Under the pieces are notes generated by a model that ran no database searches, was not told the origin of the DNA, and worked only from the letters and a program-made list of their open reading frames with translations. A stretch of 39,242 bases of DNA from Aminobacter aganoensis (GTDB taxonomy: Bacteria; Pseudomonadota; Alphaproteobacteria; Rhizobiales; Rhizobiaceae): the NCBI RefSeq assembly GCF_014206975.1, contig NZ_JACHOU010000029.1, positions 1 through 39,242 on the forward strand. The letters are read 5' to 3'. Below, in pieces: positions 27,447-39,204 of the stretch (position 1 is its first letter; every line of letters starts with the position of its first letter). The position numbers and the translations under genes are program-made.

Positions 27447-28079
27447 TTACTCATCAACTCCTGGGTAGTTGTCCTGCCGGAGCAGGCGCGCCAGATGCGC
27501 TGAATTTGAGGCGAGCATCTCCAGCGTCATTTTGACCTTGTCGGGAATCTTCTTCAGGTCGATGTAGTTCACGTCCTGCATGGCCTCACCGACCCAATAG
27601 CCGCCGGCATTGGCCGGTATGGTAAAGCCGACATCGTTCAGTGCTTGGAAACAGGCTGCATGGCAGTGATGCGCGCCGTCCTCATTGCCGACCACCAGAA
27701 CGACCGCGACCTTGCCGCTGCTGGGCATCCTGCCGCGATCATCCGTCTCGGACAGGAATGCGTCCAAGCGCTCCAGCACACGTTTGGCCAAGCTTGAGGG
27801 TTGGCCCATCCAGATCGGCGTGGCCAGAACGAAAATATCTGCAGTCAGGATCAGCTTGCGCAGTTCGGGCCATTCGTCGCCGCCGCCTTCATCTGACCGG
27901 ACGCCGGGCGGAATGTTCTGATCGGCCATTCGGCGCGAACTGCCCGTCACACCATGCGGCTGCAGAAAGCTGAAAAGGTCTGCGATCATCTTGTCGGTCG
28001 AACTGGGCTCATCGTCCTTGGAAGTCTTTAGCGAGCAGTTGAGGGCAAAGGCGGTCAGGGCCGGCATTGTCGAGCTCAT
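27447..28079 (-). CDS. Flavodoxin-fold NAD(P)H-dependent reductase
   Basis: A 210-residue FMN-binding protein. A first strand and phosphate-binding loop (LTAFALNCSLKTSKDDEPSST) precede a long helix. The middle shows the typical DIFVLATPIWMGQPSSLAKRVLERLDAF-type segment (reported here as ILTADIFVLATPIWMGQPSS). Strand four is VAVVLVVGNEDGAHH. This fits the NADPH-dependent FMN reductase/flavodoxin group. Its ATG overlaps the stop of the dehydrogenase gene (ATGA), making it the last gene of the respiratory cluster. It may reduce quinones or shuttle electrons, but no specific partner is evident. Confidence 0.87.
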   Translation of the reverse strand: MSSTMPALTAFALNCSLKTSKDDEPSSTDKMIADLFSFLQPHGVTGSSRRMADQNIPPGVRSDEGGGDEWPELRKLILTADIFVLATPIWMGQPSSLAKRVLERLDAFLSETDDRGRMPSSGKVAVVLVVGNEDGAHHCHAACFQALNDVGFTIPANAGGYWVGEAMQDVNYIDLKKIPDKVKMTLEMLASNSAHLARLLRQDNYPGVDE

Positions 28080-29416
28080 GGCTGTTGGCCTTCGGATGCC
28101 ACACGCCAGACCTTGTCGCCAACATCGTCAGCAATAAGCAGTGAGCCGTCTCGGCCGATGGCCACGCCCACCGGCCGACCAGCAGCAGTATCGTCCGGAC
28201 GCAGGAACCCAGTCAGGATATCTTTGGGAGGTCCGGATGGTTCGCCGGCGTTGAAAGGAACGAAAACCACTTTGTAGCCACTGCGGGGCATTCTGTTCCA
28301 CGAGCCGTGCTGGCCGATGAAGGCGCCGTTCTTCATTTCGGGTCCGAACATTTCGCCAGTGTTGAAAGTCAGACCCAAAGAAGCGGTGTGCGAGCCAAGC
28401 GCGTAGTCAGGCTTGACTGCCTTGGCTACGAGATCTGGCCGCGGCGGCTCGATGCGATCGTCTACTATTTGTCCGAAATAGCTGTATGGCCAGCCGTAGA
28501 AGGCGCCATCCTCTACCGACGTCATGTAATCGGGCACCAGATCGCTGCCTATCTCATCACGCTCGTTGACGACCACCCACAGCTTACCGCTATCTGGTTG
28601 CCAGGACAGGCCGTTAGGGTTGCGCAATCCAGTCGCAAACAGCCGTTTTTTTCCGCTTGCGAGGTCGATCTCGTAAACTGCCGCGCGGCCTTCCTCGACG
28701 TCCATGCCGTTCTCGCCAACATTGCTGTTGGACCCGACAGTTGCATAAAGCTTGGTACCATCCGGAGAAGCTCTGACGTCCTTGGTCCAGTGATGGTTGA
28801 GGCCCGCCGGCAGGTCAGTGACCTGTTCCGGCTGCGCCGCGATCTCGGTTGCGCCTTCCGTGTAGGGAAACGCAACGATGCCGTCGGCATTAGCGACATA
28901 GAGCTTGTCGTTCAGAAGCGTCATGCCGAAGGGAGACATTAAGCCGGTGATGAATGGCTGCTTGAACTCGGCGCTGCCATCACCATCGGCGTCGCGCAGG
29001 ATTGAAATCCGATTTGCGCTCGGGGTGTCGGCGCCTGCGCTGCCCATTACCAGCTGTGCGACCCAGCGCCGAATGCCGACGCTGCTTTCTTCCTGCGGCG
29101 GTTTATTGCTCTCGGCGACCAGCACGTCGCCATTTGGAAGGACATGCAGCCAGCGAGGGTGGTCGAGGCCGTCAGCGAACAAGGTGACAACGTATCCCTT
29201 TGCCGGCGTGGGTATCTCGCCCTCTTTCCAAGGCACGGCTTTGGCCTGGTGAACAGTCGGTAGCAGGCGCGGATCAGGCTCGGGCAATGTGGGATTGGGA
29301 CCATACTGGTCCTCAATAGCCACCGTCGCCTGTTCTCGTGACGAGAAGACCACGACGGCTCCAGCGACGGCGATCAGGATGACAATGACCAGGGATGCGA
29401 TCAAAAATTTCTTCAC
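28076..29416 (-). CDS. Membrane-anchored sorbosone/glucose dehydrogenase-like propeller
   Basis: A 446-residue protein of the PQQ-type sugar dehydrogenase superfamily. An N-terminal anchor (FLIASLVIVILIAVAGAVVV) holds it in the membrane facing the periplasm. A six-bladed propeller follows: VTLFADGLDHPRWLHVLPNG, RISILRDADGDG, FGMTLLNDKLYVAN, the LNHHWTKDVRASPDGTKLY blade, GLRNPNGLSWQPDSGKLWVVVNERDE, and GRDGSLLIADDVGDKVWRV. The start is GTG 29416 with AGGAGG 9 bases upstream. Relatives oxidise aldoses or sorbosone and pass electrons to quinone or cytochrome c. The adjacent triheme cytochrome and oxidase make the latter route attractive. Cofactor and substrate are not provable from sequence alone. 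Confidence 0.88.
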   Translation of the reverse strand: MKKFLIASLVIVILIAVAGAVVVFSSREQATVAIEDQYGPNPTLPEPDPRLLPTVHQAKAVPWKEGEIPTPAKGYVVTLFADGLDHPRWLHVLPNGDVLVAESNKPPQEESSVGIRRWVAQLVMGSAGADTPSANRISILRDADGDGSAEFKQPFITGLMSPFGMTLLNDKLYVANADGIVAFPYTEGATEIAAQPEQVTDLPAGLNHHWTKDVRASPDGTKLYATVGSNSNVGENGMDVEEGRAAVYEIDLASGKKRLFATGLRNPNGLSWQPDSGKLWVVVNERDEIGSDLVPDYMTSVEDGAFYGWPYSYFGQIVDDRIEPPRPDLVAKAVKPDYALGSHTASLGLTFNTGEMFGPEMKNGAFIGQHGSWNRMPRSGYKVVFVPFNAGEPSGPPKDILTGFLRPDDTAAGRPVGVAIGRDGSLLIADDVGDKVWRVASEGQQP

Positions 29417-29459
29417 CTGACTTCACCTCCTGGAGAGATCGGAAATCTTCCCCAGGACC

Positions 29460-30557
29460 TCAACGTTGCGCCGCGGTTGGGGTTGCATTCTTTGCGGCAA
29501 GAGCTCCGAGGAAGGCAGCAAGTGCGTTTATATCGGCATCTGACAGGCGTTCCGCCGACTTGTGCATCAGATGCGCATTTTGGCCCCCGCCTCTGGCCGC
29601 GGCCCGGAACAGTCGCAACTGATTTGCGATATAGTGTTCGTCCTGTCCGGCTATGTCGGGATAAGTCTCATTTCTGATGGCTGTGTTCCCATGACACCCG
29701 AAGCATGACGGGATAGCCCGATCAGGCGCCCCTCCAAAGACGATGCGCGCCCCGTCCGAACGATCGTCTTCATCGGGCATGATCTGACGCAGGCGGGATG
29801 GCTGCCGGGAAAAGTGGCGAGCGACATCCGGGAAGACTGCTGGGTCCAAGGCCGAGATTGGCAGCGCCATGATACCGCTCCGTCGCTCTCGATCGGCATA
29901 GGAGCGAAGTGACGCCAGGAGATAACCTTCCTTCTGGCCAGCTATGATCGGAACGAGGCCGCCGGCTTTCAGCCCGTCTCTGCCATGGCACCGGCTGCAC
30001 TCTGCAATCGCGTTGGCGAAGCCCCGCGGCGAAATTTCCAGCCGGCCGCTCTGTCCGAGCGAAAGCGCCCGATAAGATTGTGCGCTCATGCCGGGAAGTT
30101 CGCGGAGGAAGGCGACCATGGCCCAAACTTCATCGTCGCGCGCCTGCGTTGGCCATGCTGGCATGCCGGTGAAGCGCACGCCGTATTTGACGATCCAGAA
30201 CAACTCGGCGTCATTCCATTCGCCGACCTTTTCGGTAAGGTCAGGAGGCGGCGGCAACATTCGTTGCGCCGATGGGCTTACAAGCTCTCCCGGCGCACCA
30301 TGGCAGATCGCGCAACCGCGTGCGAAATGACCGGCCGCAGGCCCGATGTCATGGCGCGGCAATTGCGCGGGAGCGTCGACCTCGAGCAGAGCGTAGGTTT
30401 TCACCGCCGTCCGCATGGCTGAATGGAGCAGCCATTCGGTGACTTTCCAGTGTCCTGTCGAAGCCCCGATATTGAAGAAGCCGATCCAGGCAAAGACGAT
30501 AATCGCAACCGGAAAGATCGTTAGAGCGATAGCCAGATGTTTCCAACGGAGTTCCAT
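29460..30557 (-). CDS. Membrane-anchored triheme cytochrome c
   Basis: A 365-residue c-type cytochrome. The N-terminal membrane helix (~residues 8-29) is followed by three heme-binding sites: C82-A-I-C-H86, C187-S-R-C-H191 and C285-F-G-C-H289. Candidate axial methionines include GMPAW after the first site and the IMALP stretch after the second. ATG 30557 overlaps the CtaG stop by one base (TGATG); a GTG three bases upstream is also possible. In this operon it probably carries electrons from a periplasmic dehydrogenase, such as the one encoded next, to the CuA/cytochrome c subunit of the oxidase. Confidence 0.92.
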   Translation of the reverse strand: MELRWKHLAIALTIFPVAIIVFAWIGFFNIGASTGHWKVTEWLLHSAMRTAVKTYALLEVDAPAQLPRHDIGPAAGHFARGCAICHGAPGELVSPSAQRMLPPPPDLTEKVGEWNDAELFWIVKYGVRFTGMPAWPTQARDDEVWAMVAFLRELPGMSAQSYRALSLGQSGRLEISPRGFANAIAECSRCHGRDGLKAGGLVPIIAGQKEGYLLASLRSYADRERRSGIMALPISALDPAVFPDVARHFSRQPSRLRQIMPDEDDRSDGARIVFGGAPDRAIPSCFGCHGNTAIRNETYPDIAGQDEHYIANQLRLFRAAARGGGQNAHLMHKSAERLSDADINALAAFLGALAAKNATPTAAQR

Positions 30558-31186
30558 CACGGGTGTCCGGTCGAAATGGCGGGAGGCTCACGCAGAAGCC
30601 GGGCAAGCAGCCACAGGGCGCCGGCGAGATAGACAACTGCGCCAACAAGCAGCATCAACACGCCGCCGAGCGCCTGGTCCTGATTAGCGGACAACTCAAG
30701 GCCAAAGCAGGTCACGGTGCCTTCCCCATATAGCGGGCGCGGGCTCAAGGAGAGCAATGCGCCAAGCAGGGTCATGTGAATGGAGGTGAACAGAAGACCA
30801 AATGCACCGGCGGCCGCCGGCCGCATGTCATGCGGTGGCTGATGAAGGCATGCGATCCAAACAAGCAGGCCCGCGACCAGGAACATGGCTTGCTCGATGG
30901 CCGTGACGAAGGTTGAGGTCTCGGCCAGCAAACGCATTTCCGGCATGTGCCATGCCCAAACGACGGCCAGTTCGACGAGCGATGCTATGATCGGCGCCCA
31001 CCCGGGGATGCGCCAGGAACGAGAGTAGTTGGAAAGCCCGATTGCGATAAGCGGGGCGGCCAGAGCCACGACCCCCATATGCGCCAACATGTGTGATGCG
31101 AAAGAGCCTCGCCAGGTCGAGATCAGAGGGCCGCCCCATATCAGGCCGAGCAATGCCACGCCCACCGCCAATGCCGTGCGTCTCAT
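30557..31186 (-). CDS. ctaG: Cytochrome oxidase assembly protein, caa3 CtaG type
   Basis: A 209-residue inner-membrane protein of the caa3_CtaG family, needed for copper insertion or assembly of caa3-type oxidases (distinct from Cox11). About six membrane helices are visible. Conserved features include ASHMLAHMGVVALAAPL near residue 30, VWAWHMPEM near 80, AMFLVAGLLVWIA, and HMTLLGALLSLSPRPLY. Several histidines and methionines near membrane edges could bind copper. The ATG at 31186 makes a clean ATGA overlap with the upstream stop, with GGAG 8 bases before it; the longer GTG start at 31195 is less likely. Confidence 0.9.
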   Translation of the reverse strand: MRRTALAVGVALLGLIWGGPLISTWRGSFASHMLAHMGVVALAAPLIAIGLSNYSRSWRIPGWAPIIASLVELAVVWAWHMPEMRLLAETSTFVTAIEQAMFLVAGLLVWIACLHQPPHDMRPAAAGAFGLLFTSIHMTLLGALLSLSPRPLYGEGTVTCFGLELSANQDQALGGVLMLLVGAVVYLAGALWLLARLLREPPAISTGHP

Positions 31187-31566
31187 CGCAGGCACTCCGA
31201 AATGAACAAAACAGGCATTGCGACCAACACGACCGCCACGAAGCTCAAGCCGGAGAGCAACAGTGTGGCAAATCCCTGGAACAGGGTACGGTCGCGCAAT
31301 GTCGGATCGTCATGCGGCGGGTCATCGCGGCCATATCCCCATTGCCGCCAGGCAAGCCAGGCCGACAATAAGATCCCGATAAGGGCTGCCATTGTGGTCG
31401 CGGCGATGATCAAACGTACCGAACTGAACCCGATGCCTAGCACCCCAGGCTTCTGGCAGTGCACAGCTACCAGCACATAGCAGGCGAGAAAATGCAGTGC
31501 CCATATCACCGGTGCGGTGAACAGCGTCCAAAGCGAATCTGTTTCGCTGGGCAAGATCCGGGTCAT
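31183..31566 (-). CDS. Small membrane protein of the oxidase cluster
   Basis: A 127-residue protein with three predicted membrane helices (LFTAPVIWALHFLACYVLVA, LIIAATTMAALIGILLSAWLA-type and LLLSGLSFVAVVLVAMPVLF). A histidine and cysteine in the first helix and HCQKPGVLG just after are noteworthy. It is joined to its neighbours by ATGA overlaps on both sides, with GGAGG before the ATG, so it is made with the oxidase. It may be an accessory subunit or assembly helper. No named family recalled with certainty. Confidence 0.78.
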   Translation of the reverse strand: MTRILPSETDSLWTLFTAPVIWALHFLACYVLVAVHCQKPGVLGIGFSSVRLIIAATTMAALIGILLSAWLAWRQWGYGRDDPPHDDPTLRDRTLFQGFATLLLSGLSFVAVVLVAMPVLFISECLR

Positions 31567-34079
31567 CCGCCAACCTCCGGAAACAGACCCATGATCGCTC
31601 CGCTTATGGCTGCCATCAACGCGAGAAAATGCCAGTAAAGGCAGGTGTTGCGCAGGTCCATGTCATGGGTCGGCGTAAGCCTGCCGGCGACACTGCGTGC
31701 CAGGCAGTAAAACTGCATGATTACGCCCAGACCGGCATGGACAACGGTCCATCCGACAAGCACCCACACGATGGCCGGGTAGACGTGGGCGACAGGGTCC
31801 ATGCGATGAAGCCAAGGTCCGGCCAGTGCGGCGGCGGCCGCAGCGATAGCGAGGACCGACGATGTCACGAGAATTGTGCGCATCAAGCCAACTGATCCGT
31901 TCGCATTGAGTGAACGTGCCAGCATCATCGTGCCCCAGGCCAACACGAAAAGGGCGACCGAAATTAGCGGCCAGGTCAAGCCAGGTCCGGTGGCGCCAGC
32001 GGTGAAATCCGCATGAATGGTCCAATAGAAGAAATAACCAAAGACGAGGCTGGCGAAACCGGTGGAGTTGCCGGTCATCGTGATGAACATCGCCCACCAT
32101 CCGACTGAGGCTGGGCCGGATGTGTAGAGAGGCAGGACGAGCCCGAGTCCCGCATCCCTTTCAGCTTTCTTCGGGATTTCGGCCGTGCCGGTCCATAACC
32201 AATAGAGGATCGTCGCCAGCGTAGCGAACCCTGCCAATGATGCAGCTAACCACCACTTGAAGGTCAGTGTCAGGAATACGGCTGCAAGGGCAACTGCCGC
32301 GATCATCGTGATACCGCCGGTTGCCGGCACCCGGATCACCTGCTCGGGCTTTGCATCCAGGACTGAAGTGACCATGCCCTCACGGCGTCCCTCCTCGACG
32401 TCGGGCAGGTAAAAGCGTCCGGCGTTCACGTCTGCCACAAGGTTTTTCTGATCCCACAGCGGGTAGCGGCTTTCGACGATCGGGATTGAACGTACCCCCC
32501 ACATTTCTTCCGGCTCGGAAATCCACTCCAGCGTGCCGGCATTCCAGGGGTTAAGAGCGCTCTTGGGATCTCCATGCTTCGGCCGCACGATATCTGCGAC
32601 CACGATCAAGACACCCGCCGCGAAGGTATATGCCCCTGCTGTCGACATGAGATTGAGCCAATCCCAGCCGAGGTCGCCCGGATAAGTGAAAACCCGGCGC
32701 GGCATTCCGCGCAGACCCGTCAGGTGCATAGGGAAGAAAGCCACGTTGAGACCGGTGAACATCAGCCAGAAGGCGATCTTGCCCCATCGAACGGACAGAT
32801 GCCGTGCGTTGATCAGCGGAAAATAGTAATAGATCCCGGCCACCACGGGAAACAGCATCCCACCAATCAGCACATAGTGGAGATGCCCGACCACGAAATA
32901 GGTGTCATGGGCCTGCCAATCGAATGGCGCCAGCGCAACCATGACCCCGGTGAGGCCGCCGATGACGAAAGTCGCAATGCTGCCGGCCCCAAACAGCATG
33001 GGAATGGACAGCACAACACGACCTGCAAGCATGGTCGCGATGAAGACGAATATCTGGACCGCGGTCGGGATTGCCACTGCAGCGGAGGCGGCAGAGAAGA
33101 AGGCGAGTGATATCTGCGGGAGCCCGGTTGTGAACATGTGGTGAACCCACAGGCCGAAAGACAAGAAACCTGTCCCTACTGCCGCCAGCACGATCCATGA
33201 ATAGCCGACAATAGGTCGTTGCGCGAAGGTAGGCACGATCATCGCCATCAATGCGATGGCGGGCAGAAAGATGATGTAGACCTCCGGATGGCCAAAGATC
33301 CAAAACAGGTGCTGCCACAGCAGCGGGTCGCCGCCGCGGGCCGGGTCGAAAAATGGCCAGTCGAACATACGTTGAAGTTCGAACAGAATGTCGCCCGCGA
33401 TCAGAGGCGGAAAGGCAAACAGGATCATTCCCGCAACCACCAGAAGATACCAGGCAAAGAGCGGCATCAGGTTGATGCGCATTCCGGGTGCGCGACATTT
33501 CATGATGCCGACAATGATCTCGACCGCCGCGGCAATGGAGGCGACCTCGATGAATGAAAGGCCGAGTAACCATATGTCGGCCCCGATACCGGAGAGCTTC
33601 TCGTCCGTTGCCAGGGGTGGGTACATAAACCAGCCGGACGATGGCGCTGCGTTGAAGAAAATCGACCCACAAACGAAAACGCCGCCAAGTAGAAAACTCC
33701 AGAAGCCAAATGCTCCAAGTCGCGGAAACGGAAGCTCGCGAGCGCCGAGCATCGGAGGCAGAAGGAAGATCGCTATCGCTTCAAATATCGGCACGGCGAA
33801 GAGAAACATCATCACCGTGCCGTGGAGTGTAAAGGCCTGGTTGTAGAAGTCGGCCGACACCAGATCATTGTCGGGTACGGCCAGCTGCGCTCGCATGATC
33901 AGTGCCAGCACGCCAGCAAAAAGCATGAACGCGAAAGCAGCGCCGGCGTACCAAATGCCGACATCCACATTGTTGACAGATGTCCAGTACCGCCAGCCCG
34001 ATGGTGTGCGCCACACTTCCCGCAGGCGCTGTTCCTGCGCTTTTCCTGGTGGTGCCGAGGATCTGGCGCGGGTGTTCAT
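31563..34079 (-). CDS. Haem-copper oxidase subunit I fused to subunit III
   Basis: An 838-residue cytochrome c oxidase core. Subunit I covers about residues 40-560 and shows the haem and CuB ligands: His in FTLHGTVMM, the GHPEVY motif with the Tyr crosslink partner, the His pair in WVHHMFTTG, and both His in GHLHYVLIGG. The C-terminal 250 residues add further membrane helices of subunit III type (YFFYWTIHADFT, then HWHFL-like YWHFLALMAAISG), a natural I+III fusion. The motif usually reading PTGIKVF is PTAVQIF here, so the K-channel lysine is replaced by glutamine. ATG 34079 overlaps the subunit II stop (ATGA); the TTG at 34097 is rejected. Confidence 0.95.
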   Translation of the reverse strand: MNTRARSSAPPGKAQEQRLREVWRTPSGWRYWTSVNNVDVGIWYAGAAFAFMLFAGVLALIMRAQLAVPDNDLVSADFYNQAFTLHGTVMMFLFAVPIFEAIAIFLLPPMLGARELPFPRLGAFGFWSFLLGGVFVCGSIFFNAAPSSGWFMYPPLATDEKLSGIGADIWLLGLSFIEVASIAAAVEIIVGIMKCRAPGMRINLMPLFAWYLLVVAGMILFAFPPLIAGDILFELQRMFDWPFFDPARGGDPLLWQHLFWIFGHPEVYIIFLPAIALMAMIVPTFAQRPIVGYSWIVLAAVGTGFLSFGLWVHHMFTTGLPQISLAFFSAASAAVAIPTAVQIFVFIATMLAGRVVLSIPMLFGAGSIATFVIGGLTGVMVALAPFDWQAHDTYFVVGHLHYVLIGGMLFPVVAGIYYYFPLINARHLSVRWGKIAFWLMFTGLNVAFFPMHLTGLRGMPRRVFTYPGDLGWDWLNLMSTAGAYTFAAGVLIVVADIVRPKHGDPKSALNPWNAGTLEWISEPEEMWGVRSIPIVESRYPLWDQKNLVADVNAGRFYLPDVEEGRREGMVTSVLDAKPEQVIRVPATGGITMIAAVALAAVFLTLTFKWWLAASLAGFATLATILYWLWTGTAEIPKKAERDAGLGLVLPLYTSGPASVGWWAMFITMTGNSTGFASLVFGYFFYWTIHADFTAGATGPGLTWPLISVALFVLAWGTMMLARSLNANGSVGLMRTILVTSSVLAIAAAAAALAGPWLHRMDPVAHVYPAIVWVLVGWTVVHAGLGVIMQFYCLARSVAGRLTPTHDMDLRNTCLYWHFLALMAAISGAIMGLFPEVGG

Positions 34080-35227
34080 TCGAGCCCTTTCAGCCAAACG
34101 GCGATCGACCGGATGTCGTCCGGAGGCAACATGTCGAAAGCTGGCATGTGCGTGCCGGGCTTGATTGCATCAGGTCTGACTATGAAGCTCGAAATGGTCT
34201 CCGGCGTGTTGGGCAGGATGCCCGCGCCAAGCGTGTTGCGTGATCCCAGATGTGACAGATCAGGCCCGAACCGGCTTGCGGCGCTGGTCCCCTCAACACG
34301 ATGACAGCTGCCACAGCCATGTTTTTCAAAGAGCTCCGAGCCCGGAGCGAAGACACCTGGCGATGGCTGCTTTCGCCTTTCGGTCCAGAGGGCGAATTCC
34401 TGCACAGGAAGGGAGGTTACCTCCACGGCCATGAGTGCATGGGAGGTCCCGCAATATTCAGCGCAGGGTCCACGGAAGCGGCCTTCCTTGGTGGCGACAA
34501 GGGAAAGCCGATTGGTGCGACCAGGGATCATGTCCACCTTGCCGGCAAGCGATGGGATCCAGAAGGAATGGATCACGTCAGTGCTTTTAAGTGAGAACTC
34601 AACGCGCTGGCCAACTGGCAAAACGATTTCGTTTGCAGTTCGGAACTGAACTCCGCCCGGAAGCCGGTAGATCACATCCCACCAGAATTGCCGACCGGTG
34701 ACTTCAATAATGACTTGAGGCGCTCCCGAATTTGCGAAGGGCCTCAATCCAGGCATCAACCAGAGTGCATAACCAAGCAGGCCGACCAATGCAGCGGACG
34801 GGAGAACCGCACCTCCCCAAAATACGAGTTGGGTGGCAGCTCGATTGTCGATCGGTCCTAGCTTTCCCCGGATTGCGGTAGCTAGCAGTGCCATCAAGCC
34901 GAGCCATATCACCGCGCCGCCGCCCAGCATCGCCCAAAACAGCTGGGCAACGCTCGCGGCTTCCTCGCCGGATGGCTCCAATGCCGATTGTTGTCCCGAG
35001 CAACCCCAAAGAGCCAAGCCTAGAAAAAGGATAATGCATCTACACTGGTAGATGCATTTAGAGTTTGTAGGTCGATTTGATGCCGCGACGATATTCTTGC
35101 TCCGGTCAGAAATGTCGACCTCAAGGGACCATAACCCGTGGAGCAGGGGACGGTTCCCCTCCTGATTTGTCCGGAGGGGTTTGCTGACCGCCGTGAGGAT
35201 ACCACTACTCTCCGAGATAGCTGCCAA
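34076..35227 (-). CDS. Oxidase subunit II with CuA and cytochrome c domain
   Basis: Subunit II of a caa3-type oxidase. From the N-terminal side it has a lipoprotein-like segment (CIILFLGLALWGCSG), two membrane helices, and a CuA cupredoxin domain (DVIHSFWIPSL, CAEYCGTSHALM with all copper ligands). A C-terminal heme c domain follows (GCGSCH, with a late Met in HMPAFDML). It accepts electrons from cytochrome c and passes them to subunit I. The only standard in-frame start before the lipobox is ATG 35227, which gives an implausible ~60-residue extension. The true start probably lies close to the hairpin at 35034-35057 and may be non-standard or mutated. First gene of the oxidase operon. Confidence 0.9.
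   Translation of the reverse strand: MAAISESSGILTAVSKPLRTNQEGNRPLLHGLWSLEVDISDRSKNIVAASNRPTNSKCIYQCRCIILFLGLALWGCSGQQSALEPSGEEAASVAQLFWAMLGGGAVIWLGLMALLATAIRGKLGPIDNRAATQLVFWGGAVLPSAALVGLLGYALWLMPGLRPFANSGAPQVIIEVTGRQFWWDVIYRLPGGVQFRTANEIVLPVGQRVEFSLKSTDVIHSFWIPSLAGKVDMIPGRTNRLSLVATKEGRFRGPCAEYCGTSHALMAVEVTSLPVQEFALWTERRKQPSPGVFAPGSELFEKHGCGSCHRVEGTSAASRFGPDLSHLGSRNTLGAGILPNTPETISSFIVRPDAIKPGTHMPAFDMLPPDDIRSIAVWLKGLE
35034..35057. repeat. Perfect 10-base inverted repeat at the subunit II start
   Basis: Arms ATGCATCTAC / GTAGATGCAT with a 4-base loop, exactly where translation of the oxidase subunit II should begin. It could be an operator, an RNA hairpin over the start, or the scar of an insertion. 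Confidence 0.7.
35156..35179. promoter_or_regulatory. Hairpin upstream of the oxidase operon
   Basis: Arms CCCCTCC / GGAGGGG separated by 10 bases, about 100 bases upstream of the subunit II lipobox codons. No T-run follows on either side, so it is not a simple terminator. Possible regulatory hairpin or operator. Confidence 0.45.
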
Positions 35228-35588: not shown

Positions 35589-35769
35589 ATTTGGTCACAT
35601 TCAGCGGAGCGCGAACGACGTCTGAAGGCGGCGCTGTTTACCTGGGATGAAAGCGATCGTTGCAGGCGACCGTGCAGCAAATTAATTCAGCTACCCCGAG
35701 TTGAAGTTCCCGACTGCTCTGCTTTCCGATGGGAACGGAAGTGAAGTGTAAGCCGGTGTCCGCGCCGCG

Positions 35770-35852
35770 AAGAGTGAGAGTGGGAATGGGAAATCCATGA
35801 CGGGTTGAGTGTCGAAAGAGAGGCTGTCGGCGCCCGTCATGGAGTTGGTCCC
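35770..35852 (+). promoter_or_regulatory. Structured leader, copy A (before DUF932 gene)
   Basis: The box AAGAGTGAGAG (35770-35780) is followed by an 11-pair perfect stem: 35794-35804 (TCCATGACGGG) with 35833-35843 (CCCGTCATGGA). An inner stem (35813-35818 with 35824-35829, one A-G mismatch) carries loop AGAGG. The Shine-Dalgarno GGAG (35841-35844) is inside the outer stem, 8 bases before the ATG. A second copy with compensatory changes precedes the next gene, so this is probably a cis-acting RNA that controls translation. Confidence 0.75.
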
Positions 35853-37046
35853 ATGAACATGCAGGTTCTCGAGGCTCGCCGCGAATCGAGCGGCGGATAT
35901 AAGGTTGATGTCAGCCGTGGAGAGCGCATCGGGCGAGTCTCGTCCGAGTGGTTCTCCCGCCCGGCTGACGAACGCTATCTGTCGCTCACCGAGCTGGGCC
36001 GTTCGGTTCGCGCCCGGACCGAGCGCAGCCGAACGCGCGTGGTCGAAACTGCTCTTATCCATGTTGAGGCCAGTCGATCGGACCCGGAGCGCCTATCTCT
36101 GATCCTGCCCGGATCGGATACCCCGGTAGCGCCGACGCATTGGAGCTTTGGCCAACTCGCCAGCCAGGTGGGAGCGCCCGCCGCCTATCTTCGCCAGCTT
36201 CCGGCCGCGCTCGCAGGCATAAACCTGCAATATGGGCTCACGTCGCACCGGGTCGAGCAGATCAAGACCCTCGAAACGGAGAACGGACGGGTCGACCTGC
36301 GTGCCGTGACTGGTCCTGACTATGGCCGCATCTATGACCATGAACTGGTTGAGGCGGTGCAGAAGATTGCCGGCAACGGCACGGGCGACACCCGCTGGAA
36401 GGTGCCCGGTGTGCTGGATTGGTCGACCGGCGTCTACAATCCTCGCGTCGACATCACCAAGGACACAACGACGCTGTATGCGTCCGATCGCGACGTATTC
36501 CTGTTCTTGGTGGACGATCTGAATCCCATTGAGGCCGGTAGGCTCCCCGACGGTTCGCCCGACCTCTATTTCCGCGGCTTCTATTGCTGGAATTCCGAAG
36601 TCGGTGCCAAGACCCTCGGCATGGCGAGCTTTTATCTCCGTGCGGTCTGCCAGAATCGAAATCTCTGGGGGGTCGAGGATTTCCAGGAGATCACCATCCG
36701 TCATTCGAAATATGCTGCATCGCGCTTCGCCCACGAGGCCGCGCCAGCGCTGCTGAATTTCGCGAATTCCTCACCCACCCCGTTCATCAAGGGTGTCAAG
36801 GCCGCGCGTGAACGGATTGTCGCCAAGACCGATGACGACCGTACAGACTTCCTGCGAAAGCGCGGCTTCTCAAAGGCCGAGACCGGCAAGATCATCGAGA
36901 CTGTGCTTGCAGAAGAAGGCCGCCCGCCCGAGTCGATCTTCGACTTTGTCGCCGGCATCACCGCCCTCGCTCGCGATAAAATCCATCAGGATGCGCGGCT
37001 GGAGCTGGAGGGCAGGGCCAAGAAGCTGCTCGACCGCGCTGCCTGA
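35853..37046 (+). CDS. DUF932 (phage/plasmid-like) protein
   Basis: A 397-residue soluble protein of DUF932, a family carried by plasmids and phages; some relatives are described as phage/plasmid-like protein TIGR03299. Recognisable parts are WSFGQLASQVGAPAAYLRQL near residue 95, the VTGPDYGRIYDHELVEAVQK stretch, DRDVFLFLVDDLNPIE, and YFRGFYCWNSEVGAKTLGMA, followed by ENRNLWG-type CQNRNLWGVED. The C-terminus is helical and charged. ATG 35853 is chosen for the GGAG 8 bases upstream; the longer frame runs back through the hairpin. It precedes the ParB-like gene and shares its leader type, suggesting joint control. Molecular role unknown. Confidence 0.9.
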   Translation: MNMQVLEARRESSGGYKVDVSRGERIGRVSSEWFSRPADERYLSLTELGRSVRARTERSRTRVVETALIHVEASRSDPERLSLILPGSDTPVAPTHWSFGQLASQVGAPAAYLRQLPAALAGINLQYGLTSHRVEQIKTLETENGRVDLRAVTGPDYGRIYDHELVEAVQKIAGNGTGDTRWKVPGVLDWSTGVYNPRVDITKDTTTLYASDRDVFLFLVDDLNPIEAGRLPDGSPDLYFRGFYCWNSEVGAKTLGMASFYLRAVCQNRNLWGVEDFQEITIRHSKYAASRFAHEAAPALLNFANSSPTPFIKGVKAARERIVAKTDDDRTDFLRKRGFSKAETGKIIETVLAEEGRPPESIFDFVAGITALARDKIHQDARLELEGRAKKLLDRAA

Positions 37047-37120
37047 TCCCCATAACGGGCGATTCCGTTTAATCGGCTTTGCGTCGTGGGTCCGTTCCGT
37101 AACTTTTGCGCTGCCCTTCT

Positions 37121-37203
37121 AAGAGTGAGAGGGCGGCGCTTCGCTTCGTGACGGGTATCGGTTCGAGAGAGAGGCTCTCGGCGCCCGTCGCGGAGTAACT
37201 GCG
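37121..37203 (+). promoter_or_regulatory. Structured leader, copy B (before ParB-like gene)
   Basis: The same box AAGAGTGAGAG (37121-37131) is followed by a 12-pair stem: 37144-37155 with 37184-37195, including two G-U pairs. A perfect inner stem CGAGAG (37164-37169) / CTCTCG (37175-37180) carries the same AGAGG loop. The Shine-Dalgarno GGAG (37192-37195) is again buried, 8 bases before the ATG. Relative to copy A, one A-T pair becomes G-C and two pairs become G-U, which is evidence of selection on the fold. Confidence 0.78.
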
Positions 37204-39204
37204 ATGGCAATTGCCGTTCAGAAGATCACCCTGTCGTCCTCGCGCGATATCCCCTTCAACAAGCTGGTGCTCAGCCAGTCCAACGTCCGGCGCGTAAAGG
37301 CCGGCATCTCGGTCGAGGAGCTCGCCGAGTCGATTGCCAGGCGCGGCCTCATTCAGAGCCTTCATGTCCGGCCCGTCCTCGACGGCGAGGGTCAGGAGAC
37401 GGGCATGTTCGAAGTTCCCGCCGGCGGTCGCCGCTATCGCGCGCTCGAAATGCTCGCCAAGCAGAAGCGCCTAAACAAAACGACGCCGGTTCCCTGCATC
37501 GTATCGGCCGCAAACTCTGACATTCTCGTCGACGAGGTCTCTCTGGCCGAAAACATCGAGCGCGCGCCGCTGCATCCGCTCGACCAGTTTCGGGCCTTCC
37601 AGGCAATGCGCGAGAAGGGAATGACCGAGGAGGCCATCGCAGCCGCCTTCTTCGTTGGCGTCAACATCGTGAAGCAACGCCTGCGCTTGGTATCAGTTTC
37701 ACCTACGCTTCTGGACGTCTATGCCGATGATGGCATGACCCTCGAGCAGCTCATGGCCTTCAGCGTGTCGCACGACCATGCCCGCCAGGATCAGATTTGG
37801 GATGCCGTGCGCAATAGCTGGCAGAAGGAGCCCTATCAGATCCGCCGTATGCTGACCGAGACGACTGTTCGCGCTTCCGACAAACGTGCTGTCTTCGTCG
37901 GCATCAACGCCTATGAGGCCGCAGGCGGCATCGTCCTGCGGGATCTTTTCCAGTCTGATGACGGCGGTTGGCTTCAAGACGTCGGGCTACTGGACCGGCT
38001 CGTCTCCGAAAAGCTGACCGTGATCGCCGACGAGTTTGCCGCCCAAGGTTGGAAATGGGTCGAAGCAGCCCTCAGCCTCCCTTACGGCGTCACCCATGGT
38101 CTCCGAAAGATTGAGGGCGTTCCGCTCGACATCACTGCGGAGGAGCAAGCGACACGCGAAGCGCTGCAGGCGGAACTCGATCGCCTGACCACCGAATATG
38201 AGGAGACGGACCAGCTCCCCGACCAGATCGACCAGCGCCTGGGCGAAATCGAAGCAGCCCTTGAAGCCCTCGACAACCGTCCTGTCCGTTATGATCCGGC
38301 CGAGGTCGCCATGGCCGGCGTGTTCGTCGGCATCGACGCCAACGGCTCGCTTTCTGTCGATCGCGGTTATGTCAGGCCTGAAGACGAGCGATCGGCCGAG
38401 GCCGACCATGAAACATCGGACGAAGAGGTCGATCCCGAAACCGGCGAAATTCGCGCCCCTATCGTGCAGCGCGCCGACATCACCATCGGCGGTCAGCCCG
38501 CTCAAACCGATGGGGATGCTGAGGAAGACGGCTTGAAGCCGCTGCCCGAGCGTCTGATCATCGAACTGACGGCTCATAGGACGCTCGCCTTGCGCGACGC
38601 TGTGGCGAACAATCCGCAAGTTGCCTTGACCATGTTGCTGCACAAGCTGGTCAGCGATACCTTCCGGATCACCGCACCGACTGGTTGCCTCGAAGCGAGC
38701 GTTAAACATCTCTATCTCTCCGGTCTCTCCCACGAGATGAAGGGCAGCCCTTCAGCGCAATCGGAGCGCGCACGCCATGAAAGCTGGGGGGATCACATTC
38801 CCGCAGACGATCAGACCCTCTGGGATTGGTTGGAACAGCTCGACGATGGCATGCGCCTCGACCTCTTGGCCCATTGCGTGAGCTTTGGGGTTAATGCGCT
38901 CTACGAGCGGCCAAATCCGCACGCGGTGTCGGGCATCAGTCGCCACGGCCTGGATGTGCGCCTCGCGCAAGCCGACCGGCTCGCTGTTGCCACGGGACTC
39001 GATATGGTCGCAGTGGGTTGGAAGCCGACAGTCGAAAATTACCTCGGCCGGGTCACGAAGGGTCGCATTCTCGAAGCCGTCCGCGAGGGCGCTGGCGAGC
39101 GGGCGGCCGAACTCATCGATCACCTGAAGAAGGGCGACATGGCCAACTGTCGCTTGGCATTTAAATGCAAGAATGCGGTGGTTTTGCCCGGGTTAGGCAC
39201 TTAA
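37204..39204 (+). CDS. Large ParB-like nuclease/partition protein, C-terminus replaced
   Basis: A 666-residue ParB/Srx-domain protein of the large plasmid type. The N-terminal ParB domain shows SQSNVRRVKAG, GLIQSLHVRP, the GGRRYRALEML box and the ENIERAPLHPLDQFRAF motif, then a KorB-like helical DNA-binding part (TEEAIAAAFFVGVNIVKQRL). The middle is a coiled, acidic region, and the last third is a conserved helical domain. Such proteins are common beside DUF932 genes on rhizobial replicons; they are not the RepB partition protein. After GDMAN (about 39,145) the sequence departs from the EAERLL-type ending that I recall for relatives and runs into CRLAFKCKNAVVLPGLGT, so the gene is probably truncated by an insertion or rearrangement. 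Confidence 0.88.
   Translation: MAIAVQKITLSSSRDIPFNKLVLSQSNVRRVKAGISVEELAESIARRGLIQSLHVRPVLDGEGQETGMFEVPAGGRRYRALEMLAKQKRLNKTTPVPCIVSAANSDILVDEVSLAENIERAPLHPLDQFRAFQAMREKGMTEEAIAAAFFVGVNIVKQRLRLVSVSPTLLDVYADDGMTLEQLMAFSVSHDHARQDQIWDAVRNSWQKEPYQIRRMLTETTVRASDKRAVFVGINAYEAAGGIVLRDLFQSDDGGWLQDVGLLDRLVSEKLTVIADEFAAQGWKWVEAALSLPYGVTHGLRKIEGVPLDITAEEQATREALQAELDRLTTEYEETDQLPDQIDQRLGEIEAALEALDNRPVRYDPAEVAMAGVFVGIDANGSLSVDRGYVRPEDERSAEADHETSDEEVDPETGEIRAPIVQRADITIGGQPAQTDGDAEEDGLKPLPERLIIELTAHRTLALRDAVANNPQVALTMLLHKLVSDTFRITAPTGCLEASVKHLYLSGLSHEMKGSPSAQSERARHESWGDHIPADDQTLWDWLEQLDDGMRLDLLAHCVSFGVNALYERPNPHAVSGISRHGLDVRLAQADRLAVATGLDMVAVGWKPTVENYLGRVTKGRILEAVREGAGERAAELIDHLKKGDMANCRLAFKCKNAVVLPGLGT

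Follow-up and report, generated by a model that had tools for sequence, protein, structure and literature searches.

Covarying mRNA leaders precede several unrelated gene families on alphaproteobacterial plasmids

Two genes of Aminobacter aganoensis, one encoding a DUF932-like and the other a ParB-like protein, are each preceded by a leader in which the same short box is followed by a hairpin that reaches into the Shine-Dalgarno (SD) sequence. This raises the question of what such a leader is, and whether it holds translation off as an initial annotation of the locus had proposed. We analysed a stretch of 39,242 nucleotides (contig NZ_JACHOU010000029.1, hereafter the window) and followed its leaders into plasmid records and genomes.

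The two leaders of the window

The window begins with the 3' end of a repC gene, which indicates a repABC-type replicon. The features under study are listed with their window coordinates.

35770..35780, plus strand: GA-rich box AAGAGTGAGAG of leader 1 (from sequence and family-wide box counts)
35795..35805, plus strand: 5' arm of the outer stem P1 of leader 1, pairing with 35832-35842 (covariation)
35812..35830, plus strand: inner stem P2 of leader 1, with loop AGAGG at 35819-35823 and one A-G mismatch (35816/35826)
35832..35842, plus strand: 3' arm of P1 of leader 1, its final two bases being the GG of the SD
35841..35844, plus strand: SD sequence GGAG of the DUF932-like gene, opening cost 8.6 kcal/mol
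35853..37046, plus strand: DUF932-like gene, 397 aa, homologues named DUF932 in plasmid records
37108..37139, plus strand: hairpin P0 of leader 2 (37108-37118 with 37129-37139), most of the box in its loop
37121..37131, plus strand: GA-rich box of leader 2 (from sequence)
37146..37156, plus strand: 5' arm of P1 of leader 2, pairing with 37183-37193 (covariation)
37163..37181, plus strand: P2 of leader 2, with loop AGAGG at 37170-37174
37183..37193, plus strand: 3' arm of P1 of leader 2 (covariation)
37192..37195, plus strand: SD sequence GGAG of the ParB-like gene, opening cost 7.6 kcal/mol
37204..39204, plus strand: ParB-like gene, 666 aa, PF02195 ParB_N

The initial annotation had described two leaders that share a box, an outer stem, an AGAGG loop and an 8-nt gap between GGAG and ATG, and every detail was confirmed from the sequence. 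Read off directly, positions 35770-35780 and 37121-37131 both carry the box AAGAGTGAGAG without any difference; at up to two mismatches the window holds seven further matches to it, every one with two. P1 comprises 11 pairs in each leader, the gap of 8 nt leads to ATG at 35853 and 37204, and a direct repeat (35798-35845 and 37149-37196) has 81% identity. The double compensatory change described earlier is likewise present, with A-T at 35797-35840 corresponding to G-C at 37148-37191, as are the two pairs that become G-U (35795-35842, C-G to U-G in leader 2; 35798-35839, U-A to U-G in leader 2). In both copies GGAG lies within the stem as had been stated, the 3' arm of P1 ending on the GG of the SD. 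Folding-energy z-scores are -5.75 for leader 1 (0 of 200 shuffles as stable) and -2.66 for leader 2 (5 of 200). Given the family-wide covariation reported below, the likeness of the two leaders exceeds chance.

The DUF932-like protein of the window is without a Pfam match at E 0.001, and its relatives match PF06067 only below the cut-off of that family. Just upstream of the DUF932 leader, on the opposite strand, lies a cytochrome c oxidase set (27447-35227; COX1, COX2, CtaG-like, cytochromes). A coxB/ctaD set is likewise located just upstream of a DUF932 leader on a Methylocystis plasmid (L081), in the orientation opposite to that in the window.

Size, distribution and covariation of the leader family

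BLAST searches with the two 96-nt leaders (E 0.01) against 72,556 plasmid records matched 90 and 39 records, respectively. A covariance model, R1, was built on an alignment of 12 copies (A1; the window and five plasmid loci). It matched leaders of this kind, here called class I, in 27 of 385 sampled genomes of the class Alphaproteobacteria and in 65 of 297 of the order, counts that include the genome of the window, and in 25 of 299 of the phylum, where all listed matches fell in the same class. The genome of the window has seven class I copies, two of them in the window, one on contig C33 and four on contig C9. A pattern scan of genome contigs returned at least 120 stretches; titles that name a genus or class are alphaproteobacterial, and some titles say merely 'bacterium' or 'Proteobacteria bacterium'. 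Outside Alphaproteobacteria no copy was seen among the matches, outsiders having been sampled in no known number. R1 gave 168 matches on 100 of 120 pattern loci, and the best 150, once aligned, comprised 141 distinct leaders, ten of them shared with the first set analysed below; the remaining 20 pattern loci (L252-L271, outside the gene census) each carry one or more class I matches at E 0.01. A covariance-model search, which the initial annotation had suggested for alphaproteobacterial plasmids, brought many further leaders with covariation, and the presence of leaders on many other plasmids is supported by both BLAST of plasmid records and R1 matches.

At gathering thresholds, no Rfam 15 family was found on the window or on five leader-bearing loci. 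A permissive Rfam 15 scan of 35700-37260 (E up to 10) left the leaders unmatched and gave two weak snoRNA-type matches, both inside the DUF932-like gene. Searches of open-access PMC brought up no paper whose title or abstract opening describes such a leader. The leader family is large and absent from Rfam 15, to which both classes are new. Among three IMG/VR contigs with the leader pattern, which may be phages or misfiled plasmids, R1 matched L273 (two matches) and L274 (three) and had no match in L272.

Pairing was assessed in two sets of class I leaders. The first comprised 126 matches, reduced to 122 distinct leaders of which 12 were seed sequences; pairing is kept in 96.5% of 2296 cells, both sides change in 15 of 19 pairs, none of 500 shuffles reached the observed pairing values, and pairing fell to 38-47% when the partner was shifted by 1-3 columns. 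The second set (141 distinct leaders, no seed, ten also in the first) was 97.5% paired with 12 of 19 double-change pairs, and the 131 leaders new to both seed and first set were 97.4% paired, with 447 GU and 39 AC combinations. Both alignments had been made by fitting to the model; MAFFT on sequence alone gave nearly the same pairing counts, and a 21-sequence MAFFT alignment with hand-set structure was 94% paired (12 of 17 double-change pairs). GU outnumbered AC by 399 to 46 in the first set (279 to 7 in P1 alone) and by 482 to 41 in the second, an excess that indicates selected pairing on the mRNA-sense strand. The partner of the second G of the SD is C or U in 120 of 121 leaders. Alignment pair 49-82, which contributes 29 unpaired cells of 121 to a total of 81 unpaired cells, is probably not a real pair.

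Box, hairpin, SD and start codon recur as one unit. Model R3 describes the hairpin alone and is blind to box, SD and start codon; at E 0.01 it matched in 37 of 199 order genomes. The flanks were read in the 30 best-scoring loci, window included, where 52 of 55 matches were testable and three lay too near a locus end. GGAG follows within 9 nt in all 52, a start codon with an ORF of at least 60 aa in 51 (the odd one has ATG 8 nt on and a short ORF), and a box is present upstream in 51 (the odd one has a flank of only 9 nt). Among 109 readable leaders of the 122 found with R1, a model that itself includes the ATG, 108 have ATG 7-9 nt past GGAG. Between the end of the box and the start of the stem lie 13-15 nt in 119 of 121 leaders of the first set and 14-16 nt in 137 of 141 of the second, with a one-column shift in reading between them, and the spacer sequence is poorly conserved despite its near-constant length. 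Of 249 full-length distinct class I leaders, 215 contain the motif AGAGNNAGAG and another 28 contain it with a single mismatch. Conservation ends abruptly at the box, no conserved sequence being found upstream of it in 115 leaders.

Several further candidate elements were considered. P0 is strong (score of at least 10) in 47 of 97 ParB-type leaders versus 61 of 485 shuffles; it is no general part of the leader, as it was strong in 0 of 76 ArdC, 1 of 40 DUF932, 0 of 14 185-aa family, 0 of 62 helicase and 0 of 8 ArdB leaders. An earlier test on the whole of class I, in which exchanging upstream parts among leaders served as the null, gave equal median P0 scores and a modest excess of helices with at least eight pairs (107 of 251 versus 338 of 1253). 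A leader peptide inside the hairpin (GTG or ATG, then ACG) was rejected since neither frame nor stop is kept: among 122 leaders the short frame stops within eight codons in 52, later in 12 and stays open in 45, four have CTG and nine are without the motif. Pairing of the class I box with P2 was discarded because P2 letters are free to vary and the box is nearly invariant. Duplex energies of box and loops as anti-SD decoys, calculated with an assumed 16S tail, were about those of the true SD and were uninformative. Some ArdC or DUF932 leaders (L019, L228) carry a GCGGGG-AGA-CCCCGC hairpin and a C-rich stretch upstream of the box.

Downstream genes and a second leader class

A second, divergent class emerged from twelve long loci with 16 weak R1 matches (E 0.02 to 8); six of these matches finish precisely at a helicase start codon. 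Their alignment shows that the six have in common the box, a AGAGAGAGCGC loop and, immediately 5' of the SD, the segment CGCTCTC. The corresponding model R2 (class II) was run on 80 of the 95 R1-positive genomes and matched in 48 of these 80 class I-positive genomes; in the genome of the window it matched at two places, on contigs C22 and C9, and the window itself has no class II match. In 39 class II sequences (six seed) 90% of cells are paired, 14 of 29 pairs show double changes, slides reduce pairing to 43-54%, and GU exceeds AC by 158 to 26. AGAGNNAGAG is present in 34 of the 39 and in 64 of 78 sequences of a wider set that holds weak matches; the GA loop (GAGAGAG in the loop region) is found in 39 of 39 and 70 of 78, respectively. 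Part of the box is predicted to be paired, unlike in class I. The two classes have in common the GA-rich box, a GAGAG-type apical loop and a hairpin abutting the SD, and little else. Tandem class II leaders, one before an ArdB-type gene and one before a helicase gene, were observed at L096:908-1601 and L094:475-1160. Contig C22 ends about 430 nt upstream of its class II leader (76757-76859, L114) and helicase gene, and the window ends just past the ParB-like gene, which suggests that the two are neighbouring contigs; a search for an exact overlap of their ends of at least 12 nt found none.

The gene census covered 335 distinct leaders of both classes, 315 of them with a readable ORF; in 20 an ORF of 35 aa could not be read, 16 of these lying within 100 nt of a locus end, and the class II entries include a few weak cross-matches to leaders of class I. 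Class I leaders (n = 240) precede genes for ParB-like proteins (97), ArdC (77; PF08401 and PF18818) and DUF932-like proteins (40; labelled by plasmid-record names and sub-threshold PF06067 matches), with smaller numbers for a 171-185 aa family (14), a 135-aa family (3), DUF2958 (PF11171, 1) and others (8), some of which resemble shifted frames of known members. The guess that copies would also stand before ardC thus proved right. Class II leaders (n = 75) precede genes for strawberry-notch helicases (62; PF13872 and PF13871), ArdB (8; PF03230 at 3.1e-36) and others (5). One leader type precedes several unrelated gene families.

Pfam and NCBIfam gave no name to the 185-aa, 135-aa and 305-aa proteins, and two tested members of the 171-185 aa family had no Pfam match. 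The place of this family is named RadC in three records with confirmed leaders, and the one member tested had no PADLOC match; a class I leader stands at this place in L002:16055, L082:28948, L118:3991, L120:15795 and L121:34959. On contig C33, a class I leader (L079:3947-4033) lies ahead of a 97-aa ORF that has no ArdC match in the present frame and may be a broken ArdC gene. Residues 120-288 of the strawberry-notch protein at L083:22345-26664 match the PADLOC profile mads_2 (E 8.6e-12). Two class II matches end on the starts of DUF6878 genes (L121:35560-35664, E 8.6e-7; L120:16397-16502, weak, E 0.0043), and DUF6878 genes are possible further members of the regulon considered below.

Proposed translation control and competing explanations

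The cost of opening the SD was calculated for random draws of up to 80 leaders per class, leaving out those without a readable SD. For class I (80 leaders) the median was 7.3 kcal/mol versus 2.8 kcal/mol with the upstream part shuffled, and 76 of 80 leaders were above their own shuffle; a control of 69 mechanically defined ORFs of at least 250 aa with an SD-like motif gave 3.8 kcal/mol. For class II (61 leaders) the cost was 2.1 versus 3.4 kcal/mol shuffled, with 17 of 61 above their own shuffle. By these predicted energies, hiding the SD is a built-in property of class I but not of class II, and as the class II SD is more open than when shuffled, occlusion alone is not the mechanism shared by the two. 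Of the initial proposal, a cis-acting RNA holding translation off, the covarying structured RNA and the hidden SD of class I stand, whereas class II with its open SD does not conform to it. The leaders, which stand before anti-restriction genes and others that serve plasmid upkeep, probably control when these downstream genes are translated.

We propose that alphaproteobacterial plasmids set these leaders directly before genes for ParB-like, ArdC, DUF932-like, strawberry-notch helicase and ArdB proteins. In class I, P1 by computation pairs the GG of the SD and raises the cost of opening it, and translation may be kept low until the hairpin is opened. More tentatively, the GA-rich motifs could be recognition elements of one trans factor, an RNA-binding protein or a small RNA, that co-ordinates translation; this suggestion derives from the two classes sharing little beyond the box, the GA loop and the SD-abutting hairpin. 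Neither a trans factor nor a transcription start was found in this analysis. To the reading as a whole, a family of cis-acting mRNA leaders before establishment-type genes in which class I holds translation low and a shared trans factor reads the motifs, we assign a probability of roughly 0.6.

Conserved structured leaders directly 5' of coding sequences are also known from Rfam 15 cis-regulatory families. In ribosomal-protein leaders and phage operators a hairpin abuts or includes the SD and has a conserved apical loop. The present leaders likewise have a hairpin at the SD with a conserved apical loop; they differ in that one leader type serves many non-homologous genes instead of one autoregulated gene, in the second linear motif upstream, and in that the ligand is only putative. 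The RNA thermometers ROSE and FourU have an SD paired in a hairpin, which class I shares. In contrast to these, P1 of class I is long and G-C rich with an SD opening cost of about 7 kcal/mol at 37 °C, no Rfam match was obtained for the leaders, and the SD of class II is open.

A linear motif followed by a hairpin is also the layout of boxA/boxB, and the linear motif, near-fixed spacer and hairpin of the leaders could be a nut-like element read by an antitermination complex. The class I hairpin, however, overlaps the SD and keeps a constant distance to the ATG, both of which point to translation, and 35589-37210 contains one terminator-like site, as chance predicts; we consider antitermination improbable. 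Translation could also be addressed without occlusion if the SD-side hairpin were a docking platform for a protein (a phage-coat-like repressor or activator), with the strength of P1 mere scaffold and both classes acting alike. This would account for the box, GA loop and hairpin beside an open SD in class II, and for the GAGAGAG loop in 39 of 39 class II leaders (70 of 78 in the wider set), but the class I SD is itself paired and its 5' partner tracks it as C or U, which a platform would not need, and we regard docking alone as rather unlikely.

The remaining explanations act at the level of DNA. Several copies per plasmid ahead of different genes would be expected of a dispersed repeat or recombination site (e.g. 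attC-like) copied before genes. Against this, the leaders show compensatory changes, the GU excess and a fixed phase to SD and ATG, and copies on the same plasmid are no more alike in P2 than copies from different plasmids, so that we give this explanation hardly any credence. A single-stranded DNA promoter of the Frpo/ssi type, in which a hairpin in the incoming strand allows RNA polymerase to initiate ahead of second-strand synthesis, is suggested by the cargo, since ArdC, ArdB, ParB-like proteins and a nearby SSB resemble that of leading regions as described in PMC11541004, where hairpins likewise stand before plasmid anti-defence and ssDNA-related genes. Unlike the elements described there, the leaders pair on the sense strand, the class I SD is in the hairpin, and 35589-37210 yielded no linear -35/-10 match. 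A template-strand hairpin would make G-U into A-C, against the 399 GU and 46 AC observed (279 and 7 in P1), SD and ATG are locked to the hairpin, about 19 pairs would be short for -35/-10 mimicry, and a scan of 35589-37210 with a linear consensus found no sigma-70-like promoter. We consider such a promoter very improbable.

For the cis-acting mRNA leaders, the link to transfer is indirect. The cluster order in several annotated plasmids is [ArdC or DUF932]-ParB-helicase-toprim-DUF2493, often with SSB, and other genes are interspersed in Rhodobacterales clusters. The cluster lies 16 kb from a relaxase in L080 and directly behind repC in L082 and L121; some carriers have no typed relaxase. Typing placed L118 and L121 among non-mobilizable plasmids, and the same holds for 47 of the 90 and 20 of the 39 BLAST-matched plasmids. 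ArdC and ParB-like proteins encoded by mobile elements feature in PMC5512222 as conflict proteins, recipients of an F-type plasmid are reported to receive its ParB and SSB proteins as well (PMC8406263), and ArdC of R388 is described as required in the recipient and not in the donor in PMC7213743. Gene content fits the hypothesis that translation is timed to plasmid transfer, whereas the cluster is not placed uniformly by the relaxase.

Leaders on the same plasmid were also compared with each other. Boxes of ParB and ArdC leaders are slightly more alike within a plasmid (7 of 2000 permutations as high, 17 pairs); for ParB and DUF932 leaders 118 of 2000 permutations were as high (15 pairs). P2 is less alike than permuted (1990 and 1986 of 2000 permutations at least as alike), and the apical loop shows no within-plasmid likeness. 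These signals are weak, fourteen comparisons having been made. P2 appears more different within than across plasmids, as if repeats were kept different.

An RNA-level regulon, in which one trans factor reads both classes and releases anti-restriction, ssDNA-handling and partition-like proteins together on plasmid entry or establishment, is possible, although we hold it doubtful. If true, it would be a translational counterpart of the single-stranded promoters in enterobacterial leading regions. Anti-restriction and establishment genes need to be made at the right moment in the recipient. A leader common to unrelated genes, in two classes, offers a bait for a trans factor and a reporter for the signal, and the new RNA family provides a genome marker for such gene clusters.
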